Source of the DNA: Mogibacterium sp.
Lineage (GTDB): Bacteria; Bacillota; Clostridia; Peptostreptococcales; Anaerovoracaceae
Reading direction: 5' to 3'
Assembly: GCA_017515425.1 (NCBI GenBank)
Contig: JAFWFU010000046.1
Span: forward strand, 1 to 44,665
DNA length: 44,665 nucleotides
Positions 5,171 through 39,331 of the stretch are shown here, piece after piece. Both the position numbers and the translations under genes were made by a program. Numbering within the stretch: position 1 is the first letter of the stretch; each line of letters starts with the position of its first letter. Below the pieces are notes generated by a model, which worked only from the letters and a program-made list of their open reading frames with translations, made no database searches and was not told the origin of the DNA.

Positions 5171-6208
5171 CTACTCCATTTCTAGTCTAAGTTGTTCGGT
5201 TTCGGGCTCTTTGTAGAATTCCATCATTTTCAAATGCTCATACGCTGCCTTCGAGGCGACTCTGCCCTTCTGTGTCCTATAGAGTAATCCCGCCTGAATG
5301 AGATAGGGCTCGTTAGCGTCCTCAAGTGTCACCCTTTCCTCTCCGATAGCGGAGGCAATGGTCTCAATGCCTACAGGTCCGCCTCCGAAGCCTCTGATAA
5401 TCGTCTCAAGTATATCTCTGTCCAGCTTTTCAAGCCCAAGCTCATCAACGCCGAGCGCATCCAAAGCCTTCATGGTTATATCTCTGTCTATATTCCCGCT
5501 GCCGACCACGGCTGAAGAATCTCTGACTCGTCTTAACAATCTATTTCCGATACGTGGAGTTCCTCTCGATCTCGTCGAAATCTCAGTCACGGAATCCTCA
5601 TCTATAGGTGTATCTAAGACATGCGCCGTGCGCCTCAGTATATCCTTTATCTCAGCAGGGGTATAGAATTCAAATTTCTCGACTATTCCAAACCTGTCTC
5701 TAAGCGGCCCTGAAAGACTTCCGGCGCGCGTGGTGGCGCCTATCAGCGTAAACCTTGCGATGTCAATTCGAAGGCTCCTCGCGGCGGGGCCTTTTCCTAT
5801 TATGATGTCGAGCGCATAGTCCTCCATTGCTGAGTATAGGACTTCCTCGACGGAGCGGTTCAGCCTGTGAATCTCATCAATAAACAGAACATCATTATCA
5901 TTCAGATTTGTGAGAATCGCCGCGAGATCCCCCGCACGCCCTATAGCTGGTCCCGAGCTTATCTTAATATCCACCCCGAGCTCATTGGCAATAATGCCTG
6001 CGAGGGTGGTTTTCCCAAGCCCGGGCGGCCCGTAAAAAAGCACGTGATCCAAAGGCTCACCCCTTAGCTTAGCCGCCTCGATATATATAGACAGATTATC
6101 CTTCACCGCCGACTGACCGCAGTATTCACTTAGATATTGCGGTCTCAATGTCAACTCGCCCGCGAGCTCGGCGGGTACTGCTCTCGTCTGAGTTACTCTT
6201 TCTTCCAT
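5171..6208 (-). CDS. ruvB: Holliday junction branch migration ATPase RuvB
   Basis: Hexameric AAA+ motor that, with RuvA, drives branch migration of Holliday junctions. The 345-residue protein shows Walker [10 protein letters not shown] near residue 60, Walker [11 protein letters not shown] near 110, sensor motif [18 protein letters not shown] with the arginine finger, and a C-terminal winged helix. The start lies 6 bp after the stop of a small membrane-peptide gene; no good Shine-Dalgarno site is evident, so translational coupling to that gene is plausible. It belongs to the ruvC-ruvA-smORF-ruvB-queA-exoA run. Confidence 0.97.
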
Positions 6209-6214
6209 ATTGTC

Positions 6215-6322
6215 TTATGCTTTCTTATCCTCTCGCCTGCTGCCAAAAATAAATCCTAGTACAGCAATTATTCCGATTATGGAAAACAGGCTAATGCTTA
6301 AAATCTTTTTATATTCTCCCAT
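6215..6322 (-). CDS. Small single-pass membrane peptide, 35 residues, between ruvA and ruvB
   Basis: An ATG preceded by GGGAG (8-nt spacing) opens a 35-codon frame ending in TAA. The protein starts MGEYKKILSISLFSII and continues with a hydrophobic stretch to FGS, then a charged tail RREDKKA. One transmembrane helix (about residues 8-27) with a positive N-terminal flank and a mixed-charge tail is clear. It sits between ruvA (15-bp gap) and ruvB (6-bp gap) in the same direction, so it is very probably translated. I do not recognise a family. Its function is unknown; it may simply couple translation to ruvB. Confidence 0.65.
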   Translation of the reverse strand: MGEYKKILSISLFSIIGIIAVLGFIFGSRREDKKA

Positions 6323-6337
6323 ATCCTACGCTCCCGT

Positions 6338-6943
6338 TTATAGCAAATAACTGAGTGATTTTTTTACATATTCTTCGGCGCTGAGTTCGTCCTCCGCAAC
6401 CGACGCCACGGCAGCCTCAGCCTCTTTTCTGCTATATCCCAGCGTCGTGAGGGCTATGACAGCCTCATTTCTCTCGCCCTTAGCCAAGAGAATGGCAGCA
6501 TTAGTCCTGTCCTCAGCCACCAATATATCCTCGGGAAGAACTGATACCTTTTCTTTCAGCTCAAGTATGACGCGCTCAGCCGTCTTTTTACCGACTCCCT
6601 GCGCCTGCGAAACGGATGCGGCATCCCCTGCCGCGATTATAGCCTTTATCTGTCCCGGTGTACCTAGAGACATTATGGAAAGCCCCGCTTTGGGCCCCAC
6701 GCCGTTCACGGATATAAGCTGTTCGAAGAGAGACAGCCCTTCCTCGTCCGCAAATCCGTAGAGTGCCATTCCGTTATCGCTCACATGCATATAGGTATAA
6801 ACGGCAATATCATCTCCCTCACGGCTACTCAGAATGCTGCTCGTATCTGAAACAAATATGCGAAAGCCTATGCCGCCCTGAGTCTCAACGACGATAGCGC
6901 CTGATTTATAATATAGATATTCGCCTTTGATATATCTGATCAT
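6338..6943 (-). CDS. ruvA: Holliday junction DNA helicase subunit RuvA
   Basis: Tetrameric DNA-binding subunit that clamps the Holliday junction for RuvB. The 201 residues show the three-domain family layout: an N-terminal OB fold (MIRYIKGEYLYYKSGAIVVET), tandem helix-hairpin-helix motifs (SVNGVGPKAGLSIMS and AQGVGKKTAERVILELK) and a C-terminal UBA-like RuvB-binding domain (EAVIALTTLGYSRKEAEAAV). It is followed by the small membrane-peptide gene and ruvB. Confidence 0.96.
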   Translation of the reverse strand: MIRYIKGEYLYYKSGAIVVETQGGIGFRIFVSDTSSILSSREGDDIAVYTYMHVSDNGMALYGFADEEGLSLFEQLISVNGVGPKAGLSIMSLGTPGQIKAIIAAGDAASVSQAQGVGKKTAERVILELKEKVSVLPEDILVAEDRTNAAILLAKGERNEAVIALTTLGYSRKEAEAAVASVAEDELSAEEYVKKSLSYLL

Positions 6944-6977
6944 ATATGCTCCTAAAAATTGTTTGTGTAGCTCCTAA

Positions 6978-7003
6978 AGATTCTTCGCTTCGCTCAGAAT
7001 GAC
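6978..7003. repeat. Dispersed-type repeat with inverted symmetry in the ruvC-ruvA gap
   Basis: The segment AGATTCTTCGCTTCGCTCAG followed by AATGAC matches, from memory, a short repeat seen in unrelated bacterial genomes (reverse strand GTCATTCTGAGC followed by GAAGCGAAGAAT). The ATTCT/AGAAT ends pair. Only one copy is visible in this window, so the repeat status rests on recall and not on a second copy here. It interrupts the ruvC-ruvA transcript. Confidence 0.5.
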
Positions 7004-7045
7004 ATCATTGCTCTCTGCTTTTATCATTCTGTGGGGCTAACTCAT

Positions 7046-7531
7046 TTATATCTTAACTCTTCCTCCCGCATGGTGTGCATGGCATATCGCAGCGGCAAGC
7101 GCGTCCGCCGTATCATCAGGCTTTGGAACCTCGGACAGTCCGAGTATCATCTTTACCATTGTCTGCACCTGCTTTTTATCAGCTCTGCCGTAGCCCGTCA
7201 GAGCTGACTTTATCTGCAGCGGAGTGTATTCGCTTATTATCATGCCCGCCTTTGCACAAGCCAAAAGCGCCATTCCCCTCGCCTCGCCTACCATCATGGC
7301 TGTCGTGGCGTTGGTATTATAAAAGAGCTCCTCGATTGACGCCGCCTCTGGTCTGTATTCCGCAATAATCTCCGCGAGCGAATCATACAGCCTCATCAGT
7401 CTTTCTTCGTTTGGAGTATGTGAATCGGTGGTTATCGAATCATAAAAAACAGGGGTAAATCTGCTTCCTTTATAATCAACTATTCCGACCCCCATAATAG
7501 CATAGCCTGGATCAATCCCAATAATCCTCAT
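7046..7531 (-). CDS. ruvC: Holliday junction resolvase RuvC
   Basis: Endonuclease that cuts Holliday junctions held by RuvAB. The 161-residue RNase H-fold protein has catalytic acids D7 (MRIIGIDPGYA), E68 or its neighbour E67 (SIEELFYN), and D140/D143 (KPDDTADALAAA). A short frame upstream overlaps the start by the ATGA tetranucleotide. A strong AAGGAG lies 17 nt upstream, too far for normal initiation, so re-initiation after that frame may be used. First gene of the ruv-queA-exoA run; a promoter candidate lies about 150 bp upstream. Confidence 0.95.
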   Translation of the reverse strand: MRIIGIDPGYAIMGVGIVDYKGSRFTPVFYDSITTDSHTPNEERLMRLYDSLAEIIAEYRPEAASIEELFYNTNATTAMMVGEARGMALLACAKAGMIISEYTPLQIKSALTGYGRADKKQVQTMVKMILGLSEVPKPDDTADALAAAICHAHHAGGRVKI

Positions 7532-7617
7532 AATATATGAAATGCTGACTCCTTATAATATCTGCACAGCAAGCTCATCACTCCGACATAATAACTACAG
7601 GCTGGTTCTGAAATCAT
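7528..7617 (-). CDS. Possible 29-residue leader peptide overlapping ruvC
   Basis: A short frame starting MISEPACSYYVGVMSLLCRY and ending FHIL stops in a TGA that shares ATGA with the ruvC start, the usual arrangement for coupled translation. The frame remains open further upstream, but the only upstream starts would be TTG codons and the promoter candidate lies inside that extension. There is no Shine-Dalgarno site before its ATG and I recognise no family, so it may be chance. Confidence 0.3.
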   Translation of the reverse strand: MISEPACSYYVGVMSLLCRYYKESAFHIL

Positions 7618-7673
7618 AACCGCAAGTTTACCATATTTTCCATGTCGAAAGAGCCTTGCTTCTTCCTCCAAAG

Positions 7674-7702
7674 ATTTTACACCATATCCACGTTCTTGTC
7701 TA
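7674..7702 (-). promoter_or_regulatory. Candidate promoter of the ruvC operon
   Basis: Minus-strand TAGACA (7697-7702) and TAAAAT (7674-7679) are 17 bp apart. Upstream, GAAC occurs three times at 11-12 bp spacing (about 7692-7722), in the same orientation. A full LexA/DinR box would need an inverted GTTC partner 4 bp away, which I do not see. SOS control of ruv genes is known in other bacteria but is not demonstrated here. Confidence 0.45.
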
Positions 7703-7794
7703 TGTTCGTTTTTTGTTCTTTTTTTGATGTCAACCGTAAAAAACACGATATTTTACAATTAAAGCACTATATTCAACAAAATATTCACTATCAT

Positions 7795-7832
7795 TTGTAT
7801 TTATACAATTTGCTGAGTTCTTATGATACAAT
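7795..7832 (+). promoter_or_regulatory. argR promoter with overlapping palindrome
   Basis: An extended -10, TGATACAAT (TACAAT at 7827-7832), lies 38 bp before the argR ATG with no good -35. A palindrome TTGTAT-TT-ATACAA at 7795-7808 overlaps the expected -35 position, as an autoregulatory operator would. ATTCA half-sites occur twice just upstream. The 339-bp stretch 7532-7870 holds this promoter, the divergent ruvC promoter and the leader frame; nothing else was seen. Confidence 0.4.
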
Positions 7833-7870
7833 TACGGCAAAGATAAAGCTCAGATTATGGAGAATGAAAA

Positions 7871-8329
7871 ATGAGACTGTCAAGACAGAATAAAATACTC
7901 GAAATCATTAAAACCAATGAAGTCGAAACTCAGGATCAGCTCCTGACTCTCCTCAGAGGCGCCGGTTACAATGTCACACAGGCTACGGTGTCGAGGGATA
8001 TTCGCGAGCTTCAGCTCATAAAAGGTCAGACGAGAGAGGGAAAATACAAATATATTGCCGGAAATTACGACAATCGCCCTATCTCCGACAGGTTTATCAA
8101 GATATTCAGGGAGACCACGCTCTCCTATGACTGCGCCCAAAATCTTATAGTGGTTAAAACCCTTCCCGGCTGTTCGGGCGCCGCCGGAGAAGCCATTGAC
8201 TGTCTGTCACTCGAGCATATCGTAGGCTCCGTGGCTGGAGACAATACCCTGCTGATAATCGTAGACAGCAGCGACAATGTTCCCCATGTTACATCCGAAT
8301 TTGACAAAATTCTCAACTCACAGGAATAG
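7871..8329 (+). CDS. argR: Arginine repressor ArgR/AhrC
   Basis: Hexameric arginine-responsive transcription factor controlling arginine synthesis and breakdown. The 152 residues fit the family: an N-terminal winged helix (RLSRQNKILEIIKTNEVET, then TQATVSRDIRELQL with the recognition helix) and a C-terminal oligomerisation and arginine-binding domain containing LPGCSGAAGEAID and GSVAGDNTLLII. A GGAGA site 8 nt upstream supports the ATG. It precedes recN, the classic Firmicutes argR-recN pairing. Confidence 0.96.
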   Translation: MRLSRQNKILEIIKTNEVETQDQLLTLLRGAGYNVTQATVSRDIRELQLIKGQTREGKYKYIAGNYDNRPISDRFIKIFRETTLSYDCAQNLIVVKTLPGCSGAAGEAIDCLSLEHIVGSVAGDNTLLIIVDSSDNVPHVTSEFDKILNSQE

Positions 8330-8360
8330 GAGCTGAATTTCAGATAATTAAGCGATACAG

Positions 8361-9980
8361 ATGATATATCAGATTATAATTGACAATTTCGCGACCATAG
8401 ATCACCTCTCCTTCAATCCGGGGGAGAGCCTTAATGTTATCACAGGAGAGACCGGTGCAGGTAAATCCGTCCTCGTAACAGCCGTAAGCACAGTTCTTGG
8501 AGACCGAGCCGATACGTCCATGGTGAGGACGGGTGCTGACAGAGCATTCATTCAGATTGCGGGCAGCAAGAACGGAGAAGAGGTCATTCTTTCGCGTGAG
8601 ATTCTTTCCTCCGGCAAATCAGTTTCCAAGCTCAACGGAGAGTTGGTAACTCTCGCGCAGCTAAGAGCCTTCTGCTCCGATTGGGTGGATATTCACGGTC
8701 AGTACGACAATCAGCAAATCCTAAATCCCGAAAACCATATTCATATCACGGATAGATTTCACAGCGAAGCCATTTCTCCCGAGCTCGAAAAGCTTTCCTT
8801 TTTATACAGTGATTACAAATCGGCTCAGAGGGAATACGACGAGCTCCTGAGAGCCGAGGCTTCCGCGAAGGAGCAGCAGGACTATTACAACTATGAATTC
8901 AATTATATAGATTCCCTGGGACTTGTACCCGGCGAAGATGAAGAGCTTAAGGAAAAGCTGACGCTCATTAAAAACAGTGCCAATATATATTCCGCTATCC
9001 ATTTGTCCTATGAGCTTCTCTATGGCATGGATGACTCGGTGCTGAACGGGCTTGGCAAAATCACGAGTGAGCTCTCCTCGGTGGAATCCTATAGCGAGAG
9101 CATATCCGCCCTTTCGTCCGAGGCGAACGATATTTACTATTCGCTCGAAGATATTGCAGGGAGGCTCAGGGATATGGAATCCTCTCTCAGCTTTTCCGAA
9201 CAGGATATGGACGCAGTATCAGAGAGGCTCTCGGCAGTCGAGGACGCAAAGCGCAAATACAATAAAAATATTGATGAGATAATCTCCTATCGCGACGAAC
9301 TCTCGTCAAAATTGGAGATGATACTGAATTTCGACAGCGAAAAATCCCGTTTGGCTGAGAACGCGCATAGGAAATACGCTCTGCTCGAGGAACAGGCAGC
9401 TCATGTCAGCGAAATTCGCCATATCATAGCTGAAAAGCTCCAATCAGCCATGGAAAGAGAACTTTCGGATTTGGAATTTGCCAATTCCGAGTTCAAGATA
9501 GATATTCAAAAGACTGATGAAATCGGAGAATATGGCTTTGATAAGGTGGAATTTCTCATCTCTACCAATCCGGGCGAGCCTCTTATGCCTCTTGCGAGGA
9601 TTGCTTCCGGCGGTGAGATTTCGAGGATAATGCTGGCGTTCAAGCATATCATAGGCGAAAGCGATAGCGTGGAGACCATGATATTCGACGAGATAGATAC
9701 GGGAATAAGCGGAAGGACTGCGCTCGTTGTCGGCAAGAAGCTGAGTGAGATAGCGGAGCATAGACAGATACTTTCAGTAACTCACCTGCCTCAGATAGCC
9801 GCATATGGAGACGATAATTTCCTCATTACCAAATCCATAGATGAATCGAAGGCATATACCGACATATCTCATCTTGACGAGGACGGCAAGGTGCGTATGA
9901 TTGCCACCCTATTCAGCGGTTCCGACGAGGACGACAGCGCTCTTGACGCGGCGAAGAAGCTTATAAAGAATGCAAGATAG
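8361..9980 (+). CDS. recN: DNA repair protein RecN
   Basis: SMC-like ATPase acting early in double-strand break repair. The 539-residue protein is somewhat shorter than typical (about 550-580). The N-terminal half has Walker A TGETGAGKS and the centre is a coiled coil of about 250 residues. The C-terminal half holds the ABC signature SGGEISRIMLAFK, Walker B MIFDEIDTGISG and the H-loop VTHLPQIAA. It starts 31 bp after argR and ends 12 bp from the convergent holA, with no terminator visible in that gap. Confidence 0.96.
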   Translation: MIYQIIIDNFATIDHLSFNPGESLNVITGETGAGKSVLVTAVSTVLGDRADTSMVRTGADRAFIQIAGSKNGEEVILSREILSSGKSVSKLNGELVTLAQLRAFCSDWVDIHGQYDNQQILNPENHIHITDRFHSEAISPELEKLSFLYSDYKSAQREYDELLRAEASAKEQQDYYNYEFNYIDSLGLVPGEDEELKEKLTLIKNSANIYSAIHLSYELLYGMDDSVLNGLGKITSELSSVESYSESISALSSEANDIYYSLEDIAGRLRDMESSLSFSEQDMDAVSERLSAVEDAKRKYNKNIDEIISYRDELSSKLEMILNFDSEKSRLAENAHRKYALLEEQAAHVSEIRHIIAEKLQSAMERELSDLEFANSEFKIDIQKTDEIGEYGFDKVEFLISTNPGEPLMPLARIASGGEISRIMLAFKHIIGESDSVETMIFDEIDTGISGRTALVVGKKLSEIAEHRQILSVTHLPQIAAYGDDNFLITKSIDESKAYTDISHLDEDGKVRMIATLFSGSDEDDSALDAAKKLIKNAR

Positions 9981-9992
9981 AATATTAAACAC

Positions 9993-11030
9993 CTATCTTG
10001 AAGCCCTCACCACAAAAAGCTCTAATGCCATATTCCTGTCAATATCCCCGTTCTTAATATCTCTATCCGTATTATACAAATCAGTCAGCAAATTCTTTAC
10101 CCTTCCGAGGCTATATCCCATGGCAGCCTTGTATGCCTTCTTAAATCTATACTCATTTATGCCCGTTAGCTTCGCCATCTGAGATATGCTCATGCCCTTA
10201 TCCGAGAGCTCCAGCGAATCATACATGATTTCAAACTGCTTGGTCAGAAGTGCCAGCACAGCCATGGCTCCGTCATCTTCTCTGACAATGGTCTCCGCTA
10301 TGACAAGCGCCTTTTCCGTCCTTCCCATGGCAAGCGAATCCACCAAATCGAATACATATTTATCGGTCTCCCCCATTACGACTTCGTCAATGAGCCTCTT
10401 GTCTATGGAGTCGCCCTCACATGCGCCTACGAGCTTGGCTATATCGGAGTCAAGATGAGTCAGATAATATACGCTGCCTCGATTGTAATAGCCGCTGACG
10501 TCTATGATATGCGTCAATTCTCTGCTTCCCAGCATTTTTCCGGCTGCTCTTATGCGCTTGTTTATAAAGGCATTTAAATCGGATCTCTCAAGCCTCGTAA
10601 ATTCATAGGAATTGCATTTCTTGCTCAAATCCCTGCCATAAGAAGTGAGACTGCCTGAGTTCATGCTCTCAATCACGAATACCAGCATAGATGATGTGTC
10701 GTCATTTCTCGCCGCTTCCTCGGCATAGCTTAAAAGCTCCTCCATGCCCGTATCGGACGTATTCTTATAGAGCGGCAGATAGTTCTTGACTATCACAATC
10801 CTCTTCGGCGAAAACATAGAATACGCCCTCGCCTCGCTCAGAATATCATAAGCGGAGACGCTCTCACCGTCGAGAGTTCTTACATCTATATCCCTATATT
10901 CTTCCTCAACATTATCTTCGATTATCCTGTCGACAGCCCATGACATGAGATAGTCCTCTGCACCATAAAAGAGCAGAGAATTCCCCGTCATATTATTCTT
11001 ATAATCGTTTGCAAAATCCTTATATGCCAT
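9993..11030 (-). CDS. holA: DNA polymerase III subunit delta
   Basis: Clamp-loader delta subunit that opens the sliding clamp. The 345 residues match the family, with the AAA+-like N-terminal region (LLFYGAEDYLMSWAVDRII, then the SPKRIVIVKNY strand) and the C-terminal collar domain (LLTKQFEIMYDSLEL and INEYRFKKAYKAA). No functional Walker A is present, as usual for delta. GAGG precedes the start. It lies downstream of comEC in the same direction, separated by 56 bp, an arrangement common in Firmicutes. Confidence 0.92.
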   Translation of the reverse strand: MAYKDFANDYKNNMTGNSLLFYGAEDYLMSWAVDRIIEDNVEEEYRDIDVRTLDGESVSAYDILSEARAYSMFSPKRIVIVKNYLPLYKNTSDTGMEELLSYAEEAARNDDTSSMLVFVIESMNSGSLTSYGRDLSKKCNSYEFTRLERSDLNAFINKRIRAAGKMLGSRELTHIIDVSGYYNRGSVYYLTHLDSDIAKLVGACEGDSIDKRLIDEVVMGETDKYVFDLVDSLAMGRTEKALVIAETIVREDDGAMAVLALLTKQFEIMYDSLELSDKGMSISQMAKLTGINEYRFKKAYKAAMGYSLGRVKNLLTDLYNTDRDIKNGDIDRNMALELFVVRASR

Positions 11031-34382: not shown

Positions 34383-34435
34383 CCTCCCTTTTCTTTCACC
34401 TACATAAGTGAAAGAGTGGGCTCACCCACTCTTTC
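34383..34435 (-). promoter_or_regulatory. rimP leader with two mutually exclusive hairpins next to the ribosome binding site
   Basis: Hairpin A pairs 34410-34420 with 34425-34435 (11 perfect base pairs, 4-nt loop). Hairpin B pairs 34393-34399 with 34408-34414 (7 perfect base pairs, 8-nt loop). They share 34410-34414, so only one can form. B ends 4 nt before the GGGAGG of rimP (34383-34388). No U-run follows A in either direction, so it is not an intrinsic terminator. The arrangement fits a translational switch for the rimP-nusA-infB operon. Confidence 0.6.
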
Positions 34436-34497: not shown

Positions 34498-34521
34498 TTA
34501 GCTACACAATTAGCTACACAA
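34498..34521. repeat. Perfect 12-bp tandem duplication across a stop codon
   Basis: TTAGCTACACAA occurs twice, head to tail (34498-34509, 34510-34521). The second copy contains the stop codon of the secreted protein gene ending at 34514, so the duplication also created a second in-frame TAG-like copy downstream. Confidence 0.9.
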
Positions 34522-35662
34522 ATAACTGCTCCATATAATACCAATATGGGGATATTTCTTTGTAATACTCCTGTGTATTGAGATCCCTTGAAAAGAAGAA
34601 AACAAGTCTTTCCTCATATGCAGGATAATGTCCAATAATTATTTCAACAGTACCACCTGTAATGCGAATAGCAGTGACTCTAAACGGTGATTTCTCTAAA
34701 ACATTTTTTATCGTCGGCAACATAGTGTTATCGGAAAGTGTACCTTTTGTAAAAAACTCTTCTCCGTTAAAACGAATTTCATAATCATCGCCCCAAATGT
34801 TTAACTTATGCCTCGCATAGTATGAGCATATGTCGCGTATTTCTTTTTCGCAAGTATTAAATTGCACTTGTATATTACCTGGAGCATATTGGATTTCGAC
34901 GGGCTCGTATGCATAATCCTTTACTACGACCGGTATCATATTGCTACGCTTCCCGTTATGTGCACGCACATAGATATATGCTTTCCCCGGTTTAGTCCCT
35001 GCAGTAATATTCCATTTGGACTTGACTTTTACGATTGATGGATCTGTTGAAAACCATCTTACCCTTTTGTTAAGCGGTTTCCACCTTCCTTTGCCTCCCT
35101 TCTTTTTCGCTCCCTTTACTGTTACGAAAAGCTCTTCTAAATCATATTTCTTATTGACAGACTCCCCTACGCCAAGTACTAATTCGTTCGTATCTGCACT
35201 AAGCGCAAGCTCTGGGTTTGCTGCATTCTGTCTCTTATCGTTTTTTTTGCACACCTTAGCGGACACAGGGTAGCTGTATGGACTGTAAACTTTAATTCCA
35301 CTCTGCATTCTATAGGCTCGCACCTTATATGTTCCAGAGCTGCTTAGGCTTACCGTTTTATCCTTGTACGAAGTGTTTCTTACTGTCTTTAATTTCTTAT
35401 ATCCGCCTATATTACCTCTCGCTTTTATAATCTCATAGCCTTTTGCCCCGTCCACCTTTTTCCATGTGATAATCAAGGCGTGATTTCCGGATTGCCTAAC
35501 GACAACATCATCCGGTGCAGAGATCGTTTGTGTCAACGGCAAAGCATATGTCTGTTTCGCGAAAAACATACTGCTTATCAGAAGCATCACAAAAGTATAC
35601 ACAAATCGACATTCTATTTTTTTATTTTCCCAAGCAAGTAGCCGTACATTCATCATATTCAT
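34514..35662 (-). CDS. Secreted Fn3/Ig-like protein A with uncharacterised C-terminal domain
   Basis: A 382-residue exported protein. A basic N-terminus is followed by a hydrophobic stretch (FVYTFVMLLISSMFFAKQ) and probable cleavage after QTYA (about residue 41). A fibronectin-III domain (about 49-138, with ITWKKVDGAKGYEI) comes next, then a bacterial Ig-like (Big2) region with KKKGGKGRW and RVRWFSTDPSIVKVKS (about 150-250). The last 130 residues (from DYAYEPVEIQYAPG) match its upstream neighbour but no family I know. No LPXTG motif or lipobox is seen. It is the last gene of the three-gene secreted operon, 75 bp after its paralogue. AAGG precedes the ATG. Confidence 0.75.
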   Translation of the reverse strand: MNMMNVRLLAWENKKIECRFVYTFVMLLISSMFFAKQTYALPLTQTISAPDDVVVRQSGNHALIITWKKVDGAKGYEIIKARGNIGGYKKLKTVRNTSYKDKTVSLSSSGTYKVRAYRMQSGIKVYSPYSYPVSAKVCKKNDKRQNAANPELALSADTNELVLGVGESVNKKYDLEELFVTVKGAKKKGGKGRWKPLNKRVRWFSTDPSIVKVKSKWNITAGTKPGKAYIYVRAHNGKRSNMIPVVVKDYAYEPVEIQYAPGNIQVQFNTCEKEIRDICSYYARHKLNIWGDDYEIRFNGEEFFTKGTLSDNTMLPTIKNVLEKSPFRVTAIRITGGTVEIIIGHYPAYEERLVFFFSRDLNTQEYYKEISPYWYYMEQLFV

Positions 35663-35737
35663 CGTCCGTTGCCTTGTTTTGGCTGTTTTCGCCCCGTTCT
35701 ACGAATAATAATATGTCGTTTTGCACGCGGTCATAAT

Positions 35738-36835
35738 CTACACTTTCAATCTTTCGTAGTAAAGCCAATGCTCAGATAATTCATCATAAAATGGCATATT
35801 AACTATTTTGTCCGGTATATAACAAAAATACGCAATTGCAGCAATTGTCTCTACTTCAATCTCAATCCATCCATCTCCAACTTCCACATAAGTGAAAAAC
35901 GGCGATTCTCTAACCACCTTCTTTACCGTCTCGGTCATTTCATCTGTAGGCGCATTCTCAGACATCTTATAATCACTTCCGTATGAAATCCACCATTCCT
36001 TCTGAGGTCTATGCTTGGCGTAATATGAGCAAATATCTCGTATATCCTTTTCAAACATATTAAACAGCACTTGTATCTGTCCGGGAGCATACTGTATATT
36101 CACAGCTTCATATGCATAATCCATGACCTTAACCTTATAAAGATTGCTTTTTATCCCGTTATGCGCTCTTGCATAGATATAGCATTCGCCCACATTATCC
36201 TGAGCCTGTATTATTCCGTTCTCATCTATGGTCGCAATGCTTGTATCTGTTGAGAACCATTGCACCTTCTGCCTCAGTGCAGCTTTCTTGCTCCCTTCCT
36301 TTGCACTCGGATATACCGTTTTGTGCATATCGCGGTCGCCGCCCTTTTCGCATAGTCCGTACTCGTGCTCTCGTATGATACTGCCCCAAATTCTTACCTT
36401 TGTGGCATTTGCTTTCTTTTCCTTTTTATTGCAAGTCTTAGCGGAAACAATATAGCTGAACGGGCTATATACTTTTTCTCCGTTTACACTCTTATACGCG
36501 CGCACTTTGTATGTGCCTATCCTTCGGATGCCTACCTTAGTTGTCCAAGATGTTTTCTTTATCTTCTTCACCCTGCGGTATCCACCTAGGCAATGATACA
36601 TCTTATATATCTCATATCCTTTGGCTCCCTCTACCTTATCCCATTTCAATTTCAGATGTTTGGAGTCTTTTTGCACTATTATGAGATTATCCGGTGCCTT
36701 AAACTCACTCGTATCATTTGCCCCATATGAAACAGGCAGGGATAGGTTGCTGAGAGCCACTACTAATATAAATATAACAAATCTGCGTATATTCATGCCT
36801 ATCATTGCGTGTTTTGTTCTATTTTGTGCCTTCAT
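35738..36835 (-). CDS. Secreted Fn3/Ig-like protein B, paralogue of protein A
   Basis: An exported protein of 365 residues from the ATG at 36835 (MKAQNRTKHAM), which has GGGAGG 9 nt upstream; an ATG 9 bp earlier touches that site directly and is less likely. The signal peptide (FVIFILVVALSNLSLPVSYGA) is followed by an Fn3 domain (LKWDKVEGAKGYEIYK), a Big2-like region (KVQWFSTDTSIATID) and the same C-terminal domain as protein A (DYAYEAVNIQYAPG, EKDIRDICSYYAKH). It overlaps the end of the protease gene by 17 bp, so translation is coupled. Function unknown. Sequence divergence from protein A is large, so the duplication is old. Confidence 0.75.
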   Translation of the reverse strand: MKAQNRTKHAMIGMNIRRFVIFILVVALSNLSLPVSYGANDTSEFKAPDNLIIVQKDSKHLKLKWDKVEGAKGYEIYKMYHCLGGYRRVKKIKKTSWTTKVGIRRIGTYKVRAYKSVNGEKVYSPFSYIVSAKTCNKKEKKANATKVRIWGSIIREHEYGLCEKGGDRDMHKTVYPSAKEGSKKAALRQKVQWFSTDTSIATIDENGIIQAQDNVGECYIYARAHNGIKSNLYKVKVMDYAYEAVNIQYAPGQIQVLFNMFEKDIRDICSYYAKHRPQKEWWISYGSDYKMSENAPTDEMTETVKKVVRESPFFTYVEVGDGWIEIEVETIAAIAYFCYIPDKIVNMPFYDELSEHWLYYERLKV

Positions 36836-39251
36836 ATAACTCATCCTCCCTGTTAATTATGGCATCGGAGATTTTGTATGGATCACCAAATACGTCATTA
36901 AAGTCTTTATATGACTGCAATTCATTAAAAGTTATCCCATCATCGGCTAGGTTGTACGCAAGCAGCATCATCTCTATATCATTTAATCGTATTTTAACAT
37001 AATCTAATCCATCACTCTTCATAAGATTTAAATATCTATATCCTTCACTAGTTGTCAATTTTTCACAGGTCTCTGCATTGTCGGCACAGCGGTCTATACC
37101 CCAATCAGTATAGGCATCCATAAGTCCAAGTATATGTCCCATCTCATGAGCTGCCGTGTCCATATATTGTGACTTATTCTTTGGCACAGTCATGAGTTGC
37201 GATATATTTGTAGCAAGTTGAGCATTAGTCGGCATATATATATATGGTAGATTGTGACCATCGTACATCTCTAAATTATATGTATTTGCATGAAACCAAT
37301 AGTTTCCATAACTTAGGTGGTAATAATCAGAAGAGTTTATCCAAAGTGGTGCAACACCGCCTAATCTGACCTCTACAAATTTCTGATTGGGATTATATGA
37401 TTCCGTCCTAGCCAGATGTGTAATGAGCTTCGTAGTAAAGCCCTTTATTGAGTTGTCGAAATCTCCCTCTGACGAATCCATATAAATATCATCATATCCC
37501 TTTTTTAATCCTTCTAAAAAAGTATCCCTGCATGATTCCCCGTTTTGCACCACGTAGGGGTCATTCTCTTTTGTAAAGTAAATCCCGTCGGATGTGTCAG
37601 TTTTTGGATTATACTGAACGAAGTCTATATATAGATGAATCTCTAATACATCGCCGGTAAAACGGTATTTGACAGGAGGATATATATTATCTCCTACATA
37701 ATATTGATTCGCATTCCAATTTTCATCTCTGTTTATGGCTACTTTGCTGAATAGTGGATCATTCTTGGCAAGCTCAATATTCCTCGCTACATTTATGAAT
37801 AGGCACTTTTCAACATTTGATTTTTCATCGCTCTTTTTTACTCTTATCGCATAATAATATGTCTTACTAGACTCAATATCTCTATCTACGAATTTCTTTG
37901 TCTTTTTAGATTTTATAAACTTATATGCATTTCGCGACTTCTCAACTTCTCTCTCTGATGTGCCCCTATATATATAATAGCCCTTGGAGTCGGACAGGGC
38001 ATCCCATTTCAGTTCTATTCCATCCTCAACCACCCTTGCGCTCAACGTCACACAGCCCGGTGTTAAAATCACCTCATTGGATTTAAAGCCTTTCTTTCCG
38101 ACTCGGAAAAAATACGCTTCACTTTTTTTAAGACCTTTTACCGTTATATTGTATTGCTTGTTCTTCTTTAATGTAAATGAGTTCTTTTTTACTCTTTTAT
38201 TGTCAATATATATCTCGTACTTTTTATTCTTATCCAAATTGACTATCTTTTCGTCAATTATCACTCCGCACTTCTTTACGGTTGTCGAGCCGCCCTTAAC
38301 GGTCAGCTTAACTGATGTGAAAGATGTTGCTTTTCCCGTGAGTTCGGGCTTTGTTTCCTTAGGCTTTGCCGCCGCCATGGGCATGTCAGATTTGACTTTT
38401 ATCTTACACTTCGCCTTATGCTTGCCGTCCTCCGTCTCCGCGGTTATCGTTGCAGACCCGACCTTATTTATCTTTACGGTTCCGCTCTTATCCACCGACG
38501 CGACTTTTTTGTCATCGCTCGTCCATGTGATAGTTTTATTGCTCGCCATGCTCGGCGTTATCACGGCATTCAGCTTTATGCTGTCACCTACTCCAGCCGT
38601 CACCTCGCTCCTGTCTAGCGTAATGTCTGTGACGGATATGCGCACCGAGCTTTTCTTCACAAAGGCATATTTATGATCCATGCCGTCACTAAATTCGATA
38701 TTCTCACATAATACGCGGTAATATTCGCCGCATATTCCGATTATCGTCATTTTCGTGCCTTTATCAACGATTTTCCTTACATATTGATCGGGTGCGTCAT
38801 ATGCGCCGCGAACCAGCTTTGCCTCGCCCGTTGTAATGCATTCCGTATACTCGGTTTCCTTGGATATAGATATTGTAGCCTGGTCTGTATATGTCTTTCC
38901 GTCCTTTCCCTTTACGGTGAGTATCAGCTTGGCAATCCCGTTGCTATGACCCGTAATATATATGGTATCTTCTTGCCCGCTTACGGTAAATACAGCCTCG
39001 TTGTCGCTGCTCCAGCTATAGCTCTCAGCTTCAACGTCGACCAACTTATATCCGATATTCTTTTCGCCGCTTTGCCCTTCGTACAGGCTCCTATGTACTA
39101 TCGACTCACCTGACACATGATTCCATATTACCACCTTCGGATCTGCGGCATAGGCAGATATAAGAAAAGCACATTGCATAGAAAACATAAGAAGCAATGT
39201 GCTTAGTGCAATCATCAGGCAGCGGGTGGATTTTCGTCTTCGGTCTCTCAT
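36819..39251 (-). CDS. Secreted Ig-like/Fn3 protein with metzincin-like zinc protease domain
   Basis: An 810-residue exported protein. The signal peptide (MIALSTLLLMFSMQCAFLISAYA) is followed by a Big2-like domain and an SH3-like segment (about 125-205). A clear Big2 domain (VTDITLDRSEVTAGVGDSIK) comes next, then a Lys-rich linker and an Fn3 domain (ELKWDALSDSKGYYIYR). The C-terminal region (about 510-810) contains HEMGHILGLMD, with H702, E703, H706, G709 and D712. This is the HExxHxxGxxD zinc site of metzincins, with Asp as third ligand as in snapalysin. A Met-turn candidate follows (YLNLMKSDG). GAGAGGG precedes the ATG. It is first in the three-gene operon. No anchor is seen, so it is probably released or held by the Ig modules. 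Confidence 0.82.
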   Translation of the reverse strand: MRDRRRKSTRCLMIALSTLLLMFSMQCAFLISAYAADPKVVIWNHVSGESIVHRSLYEGQSGEKNIGYKLVDVEAESYSWSSDNEAVFTVSGQEDTIYITGHSNGIAKLILTVKGKDGKTYTDQATISISKETEYTECITTGEAKLVRGAYDAPDQYVRKIVDKGTKMTIIGICGEYYRVLCENIEFSDGMDHKYAFVKKSSVRISVTDITLDRSEVTAGVGDSIKLNAVITPSMASNKTITWTSDDKKVASVDKSGTVKINKVGSATITAETEDGKHKAKCKIKVKSDMPMAAAKPKETKPELTGKATSFTSVKLTVKGGSTTVKKCGVIIDEKIVNLDKNKKYEIYIDNKRVKKNSFTLKKNKQYNITVKGLKKSEAYFFRVGKKGFKSNEVILTPGCVTLSARVVEDGIELKWDALSDSKGYYIYRGTSEREVEKSRNAYKFIKSKKTKKFVDRDIESSKTYYYAIRVKKSDEKSNVEKCLFINVARNIELAKNDPLFSKVAINRDENWNANQYYVGDNIYPPVKYRFTGDVLEIHLYIDFVQYNPKTDTSDGIYFTKENDPYVVQNGESCRDTFLEGLKKGYDDIYMDSSEGDFDNSIKGFTTKLITHLARTESYNPNQKFVEVRLGGVAPLWINSSDYYHLSYGNYWFHANTYNLEMYDGHNLPYIYMPTNAQLATNISQLMTVPKNKSQYMDTAAHEMGHILGLMDAYTDWGIDRCADNAETCEKLTTSEGYRYLNLMKSDGLDYVKIRLNDIEMMLLAYNLADDGITFNELQSYKDFNDVFGDPYKISDAIINREDELYEGTK

Positions 39252-39281: not shown

Positions 39282-39331
39282 ATTGAATTTTCAATTATAT
39301 AGTACTATACTACCCCCCGATTTTTTTTCAA
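39282..39331 (-). promoter_or_regulatory. Promoter and inverted repeats of the secreted-protein operon
   Basis: Minus-strand TTGAAA (39326-39331), 16-bp spacer with a G6 run, and TATAGT (39304-39309). The -10 lies in a perfect 12-bp palindrome TATAGTACTATA (39298-39309), and a second inverted repeat, ATTGAA/TTCAAT (39282-39295), follows in the leader. Both are suitable regulator sites. No terminator for the PBP gene is visible upstream, so read-through is possible. Confidence 0.55.

Follow-up and report, generated by a model that had tools for sequence, protein, structure and literature searches.

A recurrent gene cassette in Mogibacterium sp. predicted to encode an exported metzincin-like protease on an Ig/SH3-like chassis, with downstream partner proteins

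A 44,665-nucleotide contig of Mogibacterium sp. (JAFWFU010000046.1), analysed here over its whole length and referred to as the window, carries on its minus strand a three-gene operon encoding a predicted exported zinc protease (P0001) and two partner proteins (P0002 and P0003). Gene 1 (36819..39251, 810 aa), gene 2 (35738..36844, 368 aa) and gene 3 (34514..35662, 382 aa) have exactly the open reading frames (ORFs) given in the first-pass annotation, and, in keeping with the signal peptides claimed there, each N-terminus combines basic residues with a hydrophobic segment and resembles a signal peptide by eye; in gene 1 this N-terminus comprises residues 1-36 (39144..39251). Counting gene 2 from its first ATG, genes 1 and 2 overlap by 26 nt, but the fourth codon of gene 2 is also ATG (36835) and, because it lies 9 nt downstream of GGGAGG, is the likelier start. 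Gene 1 continues with a chassis module (CHAS; residues 36-215, 38607..39146, alignment A11) that is immunoglobulin (Ig)-like/Big_2-like and then SH3-like, a Big_2 domain (residues 207-283, 38403..38633; Pfam PF02368, E 5.6e-17, above cut-off), an Fn3-like module with ELKWDA...GYYIYR, identified by eye and blastp (residues ~400-489, 37785..38054), and a metzincin-like catalytic domain, here called the MET head (residues 491-810, 36822..37781; alignments A1/A9). Hidden Markov models that both include the window sequence itself match P0001 at 6.6e-78 for the chassis (residues 36-215) and 1.9e-120 for MET (residues 490-810). Among the nine chassis members of A11, a module of ~180 residues, Pfam Big_2 is detected in six (best 1.8e-7; window 0.002, under the cut-off) and SH3_3 in one (0.024). 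Genes 2 and 3 each encode an Fn3-like module, a sub-threshold Big_2 match and a C-terminal domain, here called PART (35741..36139 and 34517..34936, respectively). By blastp, the Fn3-like module of gene 1 matches P0002 at 0.05 and, at 7e-8, the Fn3 part of a protein encoded beside another chassis gene of this genome (L064; L and G numbers are our labels for loci and genomes).

The MET head carries the sequence marks of a metzincin. The zinc motif HEMGHILGLMD (H702-D712, 37116..37148; CATGAGATGGGACAT at 37134-37148), correctly placed by the first-pass annotation, conforms to the metzincin pattern HExxHxx[G/N]xx[H/D] and is followed by A713 and then Y714, at the tyrosine-switch position two residues beyond the third ligand. 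The H, E, H, L, D and Y of the motif region are invariant in all nine rows of A9. A candidate Met-turn methionine, M744 (LNLMKS, 37020..37022), lies 32 residues past D712, and 18/18 MET-like sequences with the motif in view have, between it and the NDIEM segment, a pair made up of a hydrophobic residue and Met; for L063, L082 and L086 this pair was read from the A9 alignment, and the Met of L088 falls outside the aligned column. The zinc motif itself deviates in four of the 17 MET-like sequences other than P0001: L086 has HELAHAMAELKD, one residue longer and without the Gly, L129 has Ser at the third ligand, and L088 and L126_3941 have Leu and Arg, respectively, in place of the Gly. The HELAHAMAELKD motif of L086 (6857-8377) belongs to an actinobacterial MET. 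Metzincins are described in the available text of PMC12237041 in terms that fit HExxHxxGxxD, a Tyr at +2 and a Met further on. Enzymes with an Asp third ligand and no Met-turn were termed "Asp-zincins" in older usage, according to the portion of PMC3890501 at hand, and the conserved Met of MET argues against that label here. MET reaches no Pfam or NCBIfam cut-off, and its members match Pfam M10, M12B, M64, M43, M7 and the "Met-zincin" DUF4953 weakly (best 0.0017). The earlier reading of gene 1 as an exported-looking protease of metzincin type is supported by these features, and the MET head is probably a metzincin-like zinc protease.

MET-like domains also occur in proteins of other architectures. 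Large exported-looking TSP3-repeat proteins at L125 (7162-11043, also with CBM_2) and L126 (5239-9054) end in such a domain, suggesting that MET belongs to a wider unnamed metzincin-like group, and small MET-like proteins with no obvious signal peptide by eye are encoded at L127 (5905-7029), L128 (3233-4003) and L129 (6845-7603). Two further candidates were rejected as MET relatives: L138 is a matrixin-type peptidase (Pfam), and L139 looks M6-like, by eye only.

The partners P0002 and P0003 are indeed paralogues, aligning over 371 positions with 38.5% identity (E 2e-69). The proposal that they share a C-terminal domain of ~130 residues belonging to no known family also held: PART reaches no Pfam or NCBIfam cut-off and has no convincing PDB match (best, trigger factor, 0.1), the weak matches being TIGR04279 on P0003 (0.079, 12.3 of 35 bits) and DUF1697 in one of ten relatives (0.11). 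As for the C-terminal marks proposed for the domain, "SPF" is restricted to the four sequences that come from the same taxonomic family as the window, whereas the near-terminal Trp is conserved much more widely. An alignment of 25 PART stretches, one of which (L102_1060) was weaker than 0.01 at first pass, conserves an initial DYA/NYA, a Y[FY]-containing helix and a late Trp. Its conservation is mostly hydrophobic and aromatic; since there is no conserved polar set to suggest catalysis, PART is probably a binding domain. In a tree of 20 PART proteins, with 6/17 inner branches open, clades follow host lineage in part, the copies from G458 and from G569 each fall in different parts of the tree, and the window pair forms one clade (100/99) with the pair from G288, to which P0003 is nearer. 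A PART match in G514 was rejected as a radical SAM protein (Pfam).

The window's genome (G000; 1.73 Mb in 53 contigs) has three full-length chassis genes. The second (L063, 6029-8506, contig C35) joins the chassis to a full MET paralogue 39% identical to P0001; 22 nt downstream begins the gene of an exported-looking Fn3 protein whose start resembles that of the partners, and the contig ends after 81 of its codons. The third (L064, 8023-10515, contig C1) has a head weakly resembling CHAT (E 8.6e-4, 19.3 bits vs a cut-off of 24) with a His-Cys pair seen by eye (HISCHGG, SACHSG). A PDB search with this head returned nothing convincing, and the downstream neighbour is an Fn3-Big protein without PART. 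In their first 306 residues, which include the chassis, L063 and L064 share 60% identity, and their DNA is 73% identical over codons 8-230; DNA similarity ends at codon 230, while protein identity falls to ~40% through Big_2 and to background after residue 300. Their heads are unrelated (MET vs CHAT-like). Between P0001 and L063, the heads are 49% and the chassis 34% identical. With similar chassis bearing unrelated heads in one pair and similar heads in the other, exchange of heads on the chassis is the simplest account. The same genome encodes a subtilisin-like exported protease, as judged by eye, ~5 kb from the chassis-CHAT pair (L064, 1-1383, contig C1) and an exported-looking Big_2 protein with a CAP/SCP-like end, also by eye (L065, 6616-7509, contig C3).

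Related loci were sought in genome_contigs (84,980 species) by scanning with profile A1 (two rows) via two peptide patterns, a search that is not exhaustive and that yielded seven loci; a single-protein scan of this collection with P0001 gave no relatives. A Clostridium metagenome-assembled genome (MAG) has the protease with two PART genes, and Lachnospiraceae MAGs have it with one or two. L085 reproduces the three-gene set of the window (chassis-MET 5220-8069, PART 8069-9157, PART 9230-10327). L084 has a MET gene whose 5' end lies beyond the contig, with two PART genes, and L083 one whose 5' end lies outside the locus, with a single PART gene. L082 has chassis-MET followed by a PART gene that shows up as two ORFs, and L087, from the same MAG, has chassis and MET in several frames, then PART. 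L100 carries MET and PART, and L101 carries MET and two PART genes plus a short ORF with only the start of a partner. Homologues therefore occur together at all of these loci (L082, L083, L084, L085, L100, L101 and, in split frames, L087), and the recurrence of the protease with its partner or partners in other genomes disposes of the objection that the genes are never found together elsewhere. At L086, in a Propionibacteriaceae MAG, an Fn3-MET gene lacks the chassis, as does the MET-like gene of L088; PART is present in four of the five genomes represented by L082, L083, L085, L086 and L088, the loci there including L100, L101 and L102. At L102, where a contig of the Propionibacteriaceae MAG begins, three PART-type genes lie in tandem, matched weakly by the first profile and clearly once it was iterated. 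A separate contig of this MAG ends in a chassis (L172, E 5e-22).

Larger sets of genomes were surveyed as well. Among 299 genomes of the family of G459, MET was found in 10 and PART in 5 (G459 in both; the PART count includes G514), and in seven MET-matching genomes beyond G459 and G748, G491 being left out, none of the MET matches was on a chassis ORF. In overlapping order-wide (345) and family-wide (217) surveys, MET was found only in the window's own genome and PART only there and in G288. A chassis search of 80 genomes, 14 of them chosen and 66 unselected from the family of G459, recovered full-length-type matches (E <= 3.1e-20) only in G000, G457, G459, G460, G569, G743 and G748; the 66 unselected genomes contained no full-length chassis (best match partial, 1.4e-8), and partial chassis-like matches in contigs 138 and 206 of G460 were left out of the counts. 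Scans of viral_contigs with A5, A1, A10, the L085 PART and A9 found no relatives, nor did plasmid tblastn searches with the MET head and with P0003 give matches. The L085 protease, whose MET starts at residue 658, matched 89 phage and 31 plasmid records; these were rejected as MET relatives, as the best 20 of 89 and the best 20 of 31 cover only residues 141-445, which are Ig-like/chassis-like. A full-text literature search, whose coverage mostly excludes subscription journals and which is thus weak evidence of absence, found no paper on such a cassette among those listed.

Comparison of the loci suggests that PART tracks the N-terminal chassis rather than the protease. In G743, three full-length chassis genes (L134, L136 and L170) are each followed within 12-22 nt by PART, and neither MET nor any Pfam catalytic domain was detected in the three; these loci and one solitary PART gene (L135) lie on a single 2.86-Mb contig. 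In G569, a PART gene overlaps a chassis gene with a different end (L132; GSCYGMS, HTILL, papain-like by eye), for which neither Pfam nor PDB gave support. In the same genome, one PART gene stands alone (L131) and another chassis gene is adjacent to a subtilase (L171; Peptidase_S8 1.3e-47). The chassis-MET genes of G748 (L123 and L124) are followed by a gene that is not PART. Of 18 PART loci read, 17 are resolvable (L102 was left out), and 12 of them place PART next to a chassis or MET gene (window, L082, L083, L084, L085, L087, L100, L101, L132, L134, L136 and L170), with spacings from a 38-nt overlap to a 22-nt gap and the gene order reversed in L132. Chassis loci number 14, of which L063 and L172, at contig ends, were set aside; PART adjoins the chassis at eight of the remaining 12 (window, L082, L085, L087, L132, L134, L136 and L170). 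Because PART also comes after three chassis genes that have no head, lies next to a chassis bearing another end and is found by itself at five loci, it appears to be tied to the chassis and not to the protease, a tie that weakens the earlier suggestion of substrates or inhibitors of the protease. The idea that the partners are dedicated to the protease thus survives in part: the protease does recur with PART elsewhere, but the linkage lies with the chassis. Upstream of each headless pair in G743 is an exported-looking protein, the three being alike by eye (L134 3855-4994, L136 2372-3700, L170 4861-6225); the one scanned, that of L134, matched no Pfam or NCBIfam family. After the G748 chassis-MET genes lies an exported-looking protein with Flg_new repeats and a hydrophobic C-terminus (L123 1936-2697, L124 2495-3298).

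Several observations weigh against a tie between PART and chassis. PART has neither a chassis nor a MET neighbour at 5/17 loci (L080, L081, L131, L133 and L135), and the chassis is without PART at 4/12 (L064, L123, L124 and L171). The 12/17 figure is biased upward, as several loci were first found through the MET search; among eight loci that the PART search turned up in genomes whose selection did not rest on MET (L080, L081 and L131-L136), three (L132, L134 and L136) adjoin a chassis. No full-length chassis was found in the PART genomes G288 and G539, or in G458, where four MET genes are cut at contig ends. Finally, the PART domains of L136 and L170 were seen whole only with an iterated profile: at first pass they scored 3.4e-6 (part of the domain) and 0.0034, and their later values of 2e-29 and 1e-27 followed retraining that included both and are not independent.

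The cassette itself is well supported. As to what it does, we tentatively favour, at somewhat less than even confidence, a modular exported system with exchangeable heads in which PART is a docking or targeting accessory. Gene 1 would be the platform, in which a signal peptide is followed by the constant chassis, spacers of Big_2/Fn3 type and, at the C-terminus, a head that can be exchanged and is metzincin-like in this case, and genes 2 and 3 would supply co-exported accessory proteins made of Fn3-like, Ig-like and PART modules. PART would most likely bind either the chassis or a surface or matrix target shared with it, and so place the head on its substrate. That PART serves the chassis is suggested by the constancy of the chassis and the recurrence of PART while heads change. 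Alternatively, the PART proteins may be substrates of the protease: structural components of the matrix or surface whose maturation, shedding or assembly it carries out, with headless chassis proteins as another matrix part. The Fn3-like and Ig-like modules common to partners and chassis proteins, the tandem and solitary PART genes and the very existence of headless chassis genes all suit this account, but it does not by itself explain why PART sits as tightly behind headless as behind protease-bearing chassis, and we think it unlikely, if still credible. Protease-inhibitor operons such as staphopain-staphostatin exist, and a small, exported-looking protein encoded immediately downstream, often by an overlapping gene and sometimes in two copies, could be an inhibitor or a trans-acting propeptide that silences the protease until it is outside the cell. 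Yet PART pairs with three headless chassis genes and one chassis with a different end, also occurs alone, is missing at two chassis-MET loci (L123 and L124), and has no clade in its tree special to MET loci, so that we consider inhibition improbable.

An adaptor or docking subunit is also preferred to two further explanations. The neighbourhood might be historical only, with ordinary secreted Ig/Fn3 proteins clustered by duplication and no joint function. Ig and Fn3 proteins are common in the group, and both solitary PART genes and chassis genes without PART exist; but the same pairing with tight spacing recurs in several lineages, and the full-length chassis is absent from the 66 unselected genomes, making this slightly less probable again than inhibition. 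In a polymorphic effector system, a constant N-terminal delivery part would carry variable toxic heads with immunity genes downstream, and such immunity genes would be expected to differ from one toxin head to the next and to be retained by the producer. Here PART remains a single family across all heads, has the look of an exported protein and is found even where there is no head; no head-specific immunity gene was found downstream, the same PART family accompanying different heads or none. The exchanged heads on a constant N-terminus and the small downstream genes do recall such systems, as well as the archaeal VARTIG modules described in the available part of PMC8416519, but we regard this explanation as highly improbable.

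Held more loosely than the docking role is a broader possibility, in which Bacillota, and probably Actinomycetota too, would use a plug-in platform for extracellular enzymes. A single exported Ig/SH3-like chassis would accept peptidase heads of unrelated mechanism (metzincin or CHAT/caspase-like, perhaps also papain-like) or go without one, and in most lineages the same PART adaptor would aim them. If true, this would add a metzincin-like group outside Pfam and NCBIfam models and a partner-domain family with no name in either, and would provide a case of extracellular proteases that arise by swapping catalytic heads while the exported chassis stays constant and an accessory recurs beside it. 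A concrete question it raises is what PART binds.

The surroundings of the operon were also considered. It is AT-rich, as first noted by eye, with a GC content of 39-40% and a GC content at third codon positions (GC3) of 0.39-0.43, vs 45-51% and 0.52-0.60 in six neighbouring genes. Within gene 1, the MET head is the most AT-rich part (GC3 0.34), with values of 0.50 for residues 1-215 and 0.63 for residues 207-290. Acquisition from elsewhere, which had been proposed on this basis, is possible: the composition of the operon fits it, but the genome's two other chassis genes are likewise AT-rich. The adjacent penicillin-binding protein (PBP) gene, taken earlier as a hint of the cell surface, proved uninformative, as tblastn (E <= 1e-3) found no relatives of PBP or rimP at 25 other chassis, MET or PART loci. 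A promoter-like site, TTGAAA-16-TATAGT (39304..39331, minus strand), lies 52 nt upstream of gene 1, although such sites are not enriched in the window (16 found vs 15.8 in shuffles). Between the operon and rimP is a perfect 11-bp hairpin with no long T run after it (34410..34435, minus strand; z -4.65 for the whole surrounding 121-nt stretch), which could mark the operon end or form part of the leader of the rimP-nusA-infB genes.

Comparison of the cassette with known systems shows partial likenesses. Among PDB sequences, the MET profile matches snapalysin (MEROPS M7) best (AHETGHVLGLPDHY vs AHEMGHILGLMDAY, E 0.005), and the two share the Asp third ligand and the Tyr two residues on. However, the match spans ~26 positions of a MET head of ~320 residues, P0001 has no match to Pfam PF02031 or NCBIfam NF033628 (best A9 member for Pfam M7, 0.028), and the MET head has a conserved NDIEMML after the Met. 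The Met of snapalysin lies ~10 residues after the third ligand, according to the accessible portion of PMC3890501, vs 32 in P0001. Igalysin (IgAse, MEROPS M64) is likewise a multidomain metzincin of a gut commensal with an Asp third ligand, Tyr at +2 and a Met-turn, as given in the available text of PMC12237041, and Pfam M64 weakly matches two of nine MET members (0.011). Unlike P0001, with HExxHxxGxxD, igalysin has HExxHxxxGxxD with an extra residue before the Gly, and that text mentions no PART-like partner. M6 (TIGR03296) and M10/M12B (Pfam) match weakly around the zinc helix, but all under curated cut-offs (M6 on P0001, 15.2 vs 110.8 bits). In overall layout, the cassette is like the VARTIG modules of Thermococcales, in which, as described in the available part of PMC8416519, a large Ig-domain protein with a recombining C-terminus is followed by downstream genes, some with Ig domains. 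Those modules, likened here by description and not by sequence, are archaeal, and their variable end is an Ig domain, whereas that of the Mogibacterium cassette is a putative peptidase.

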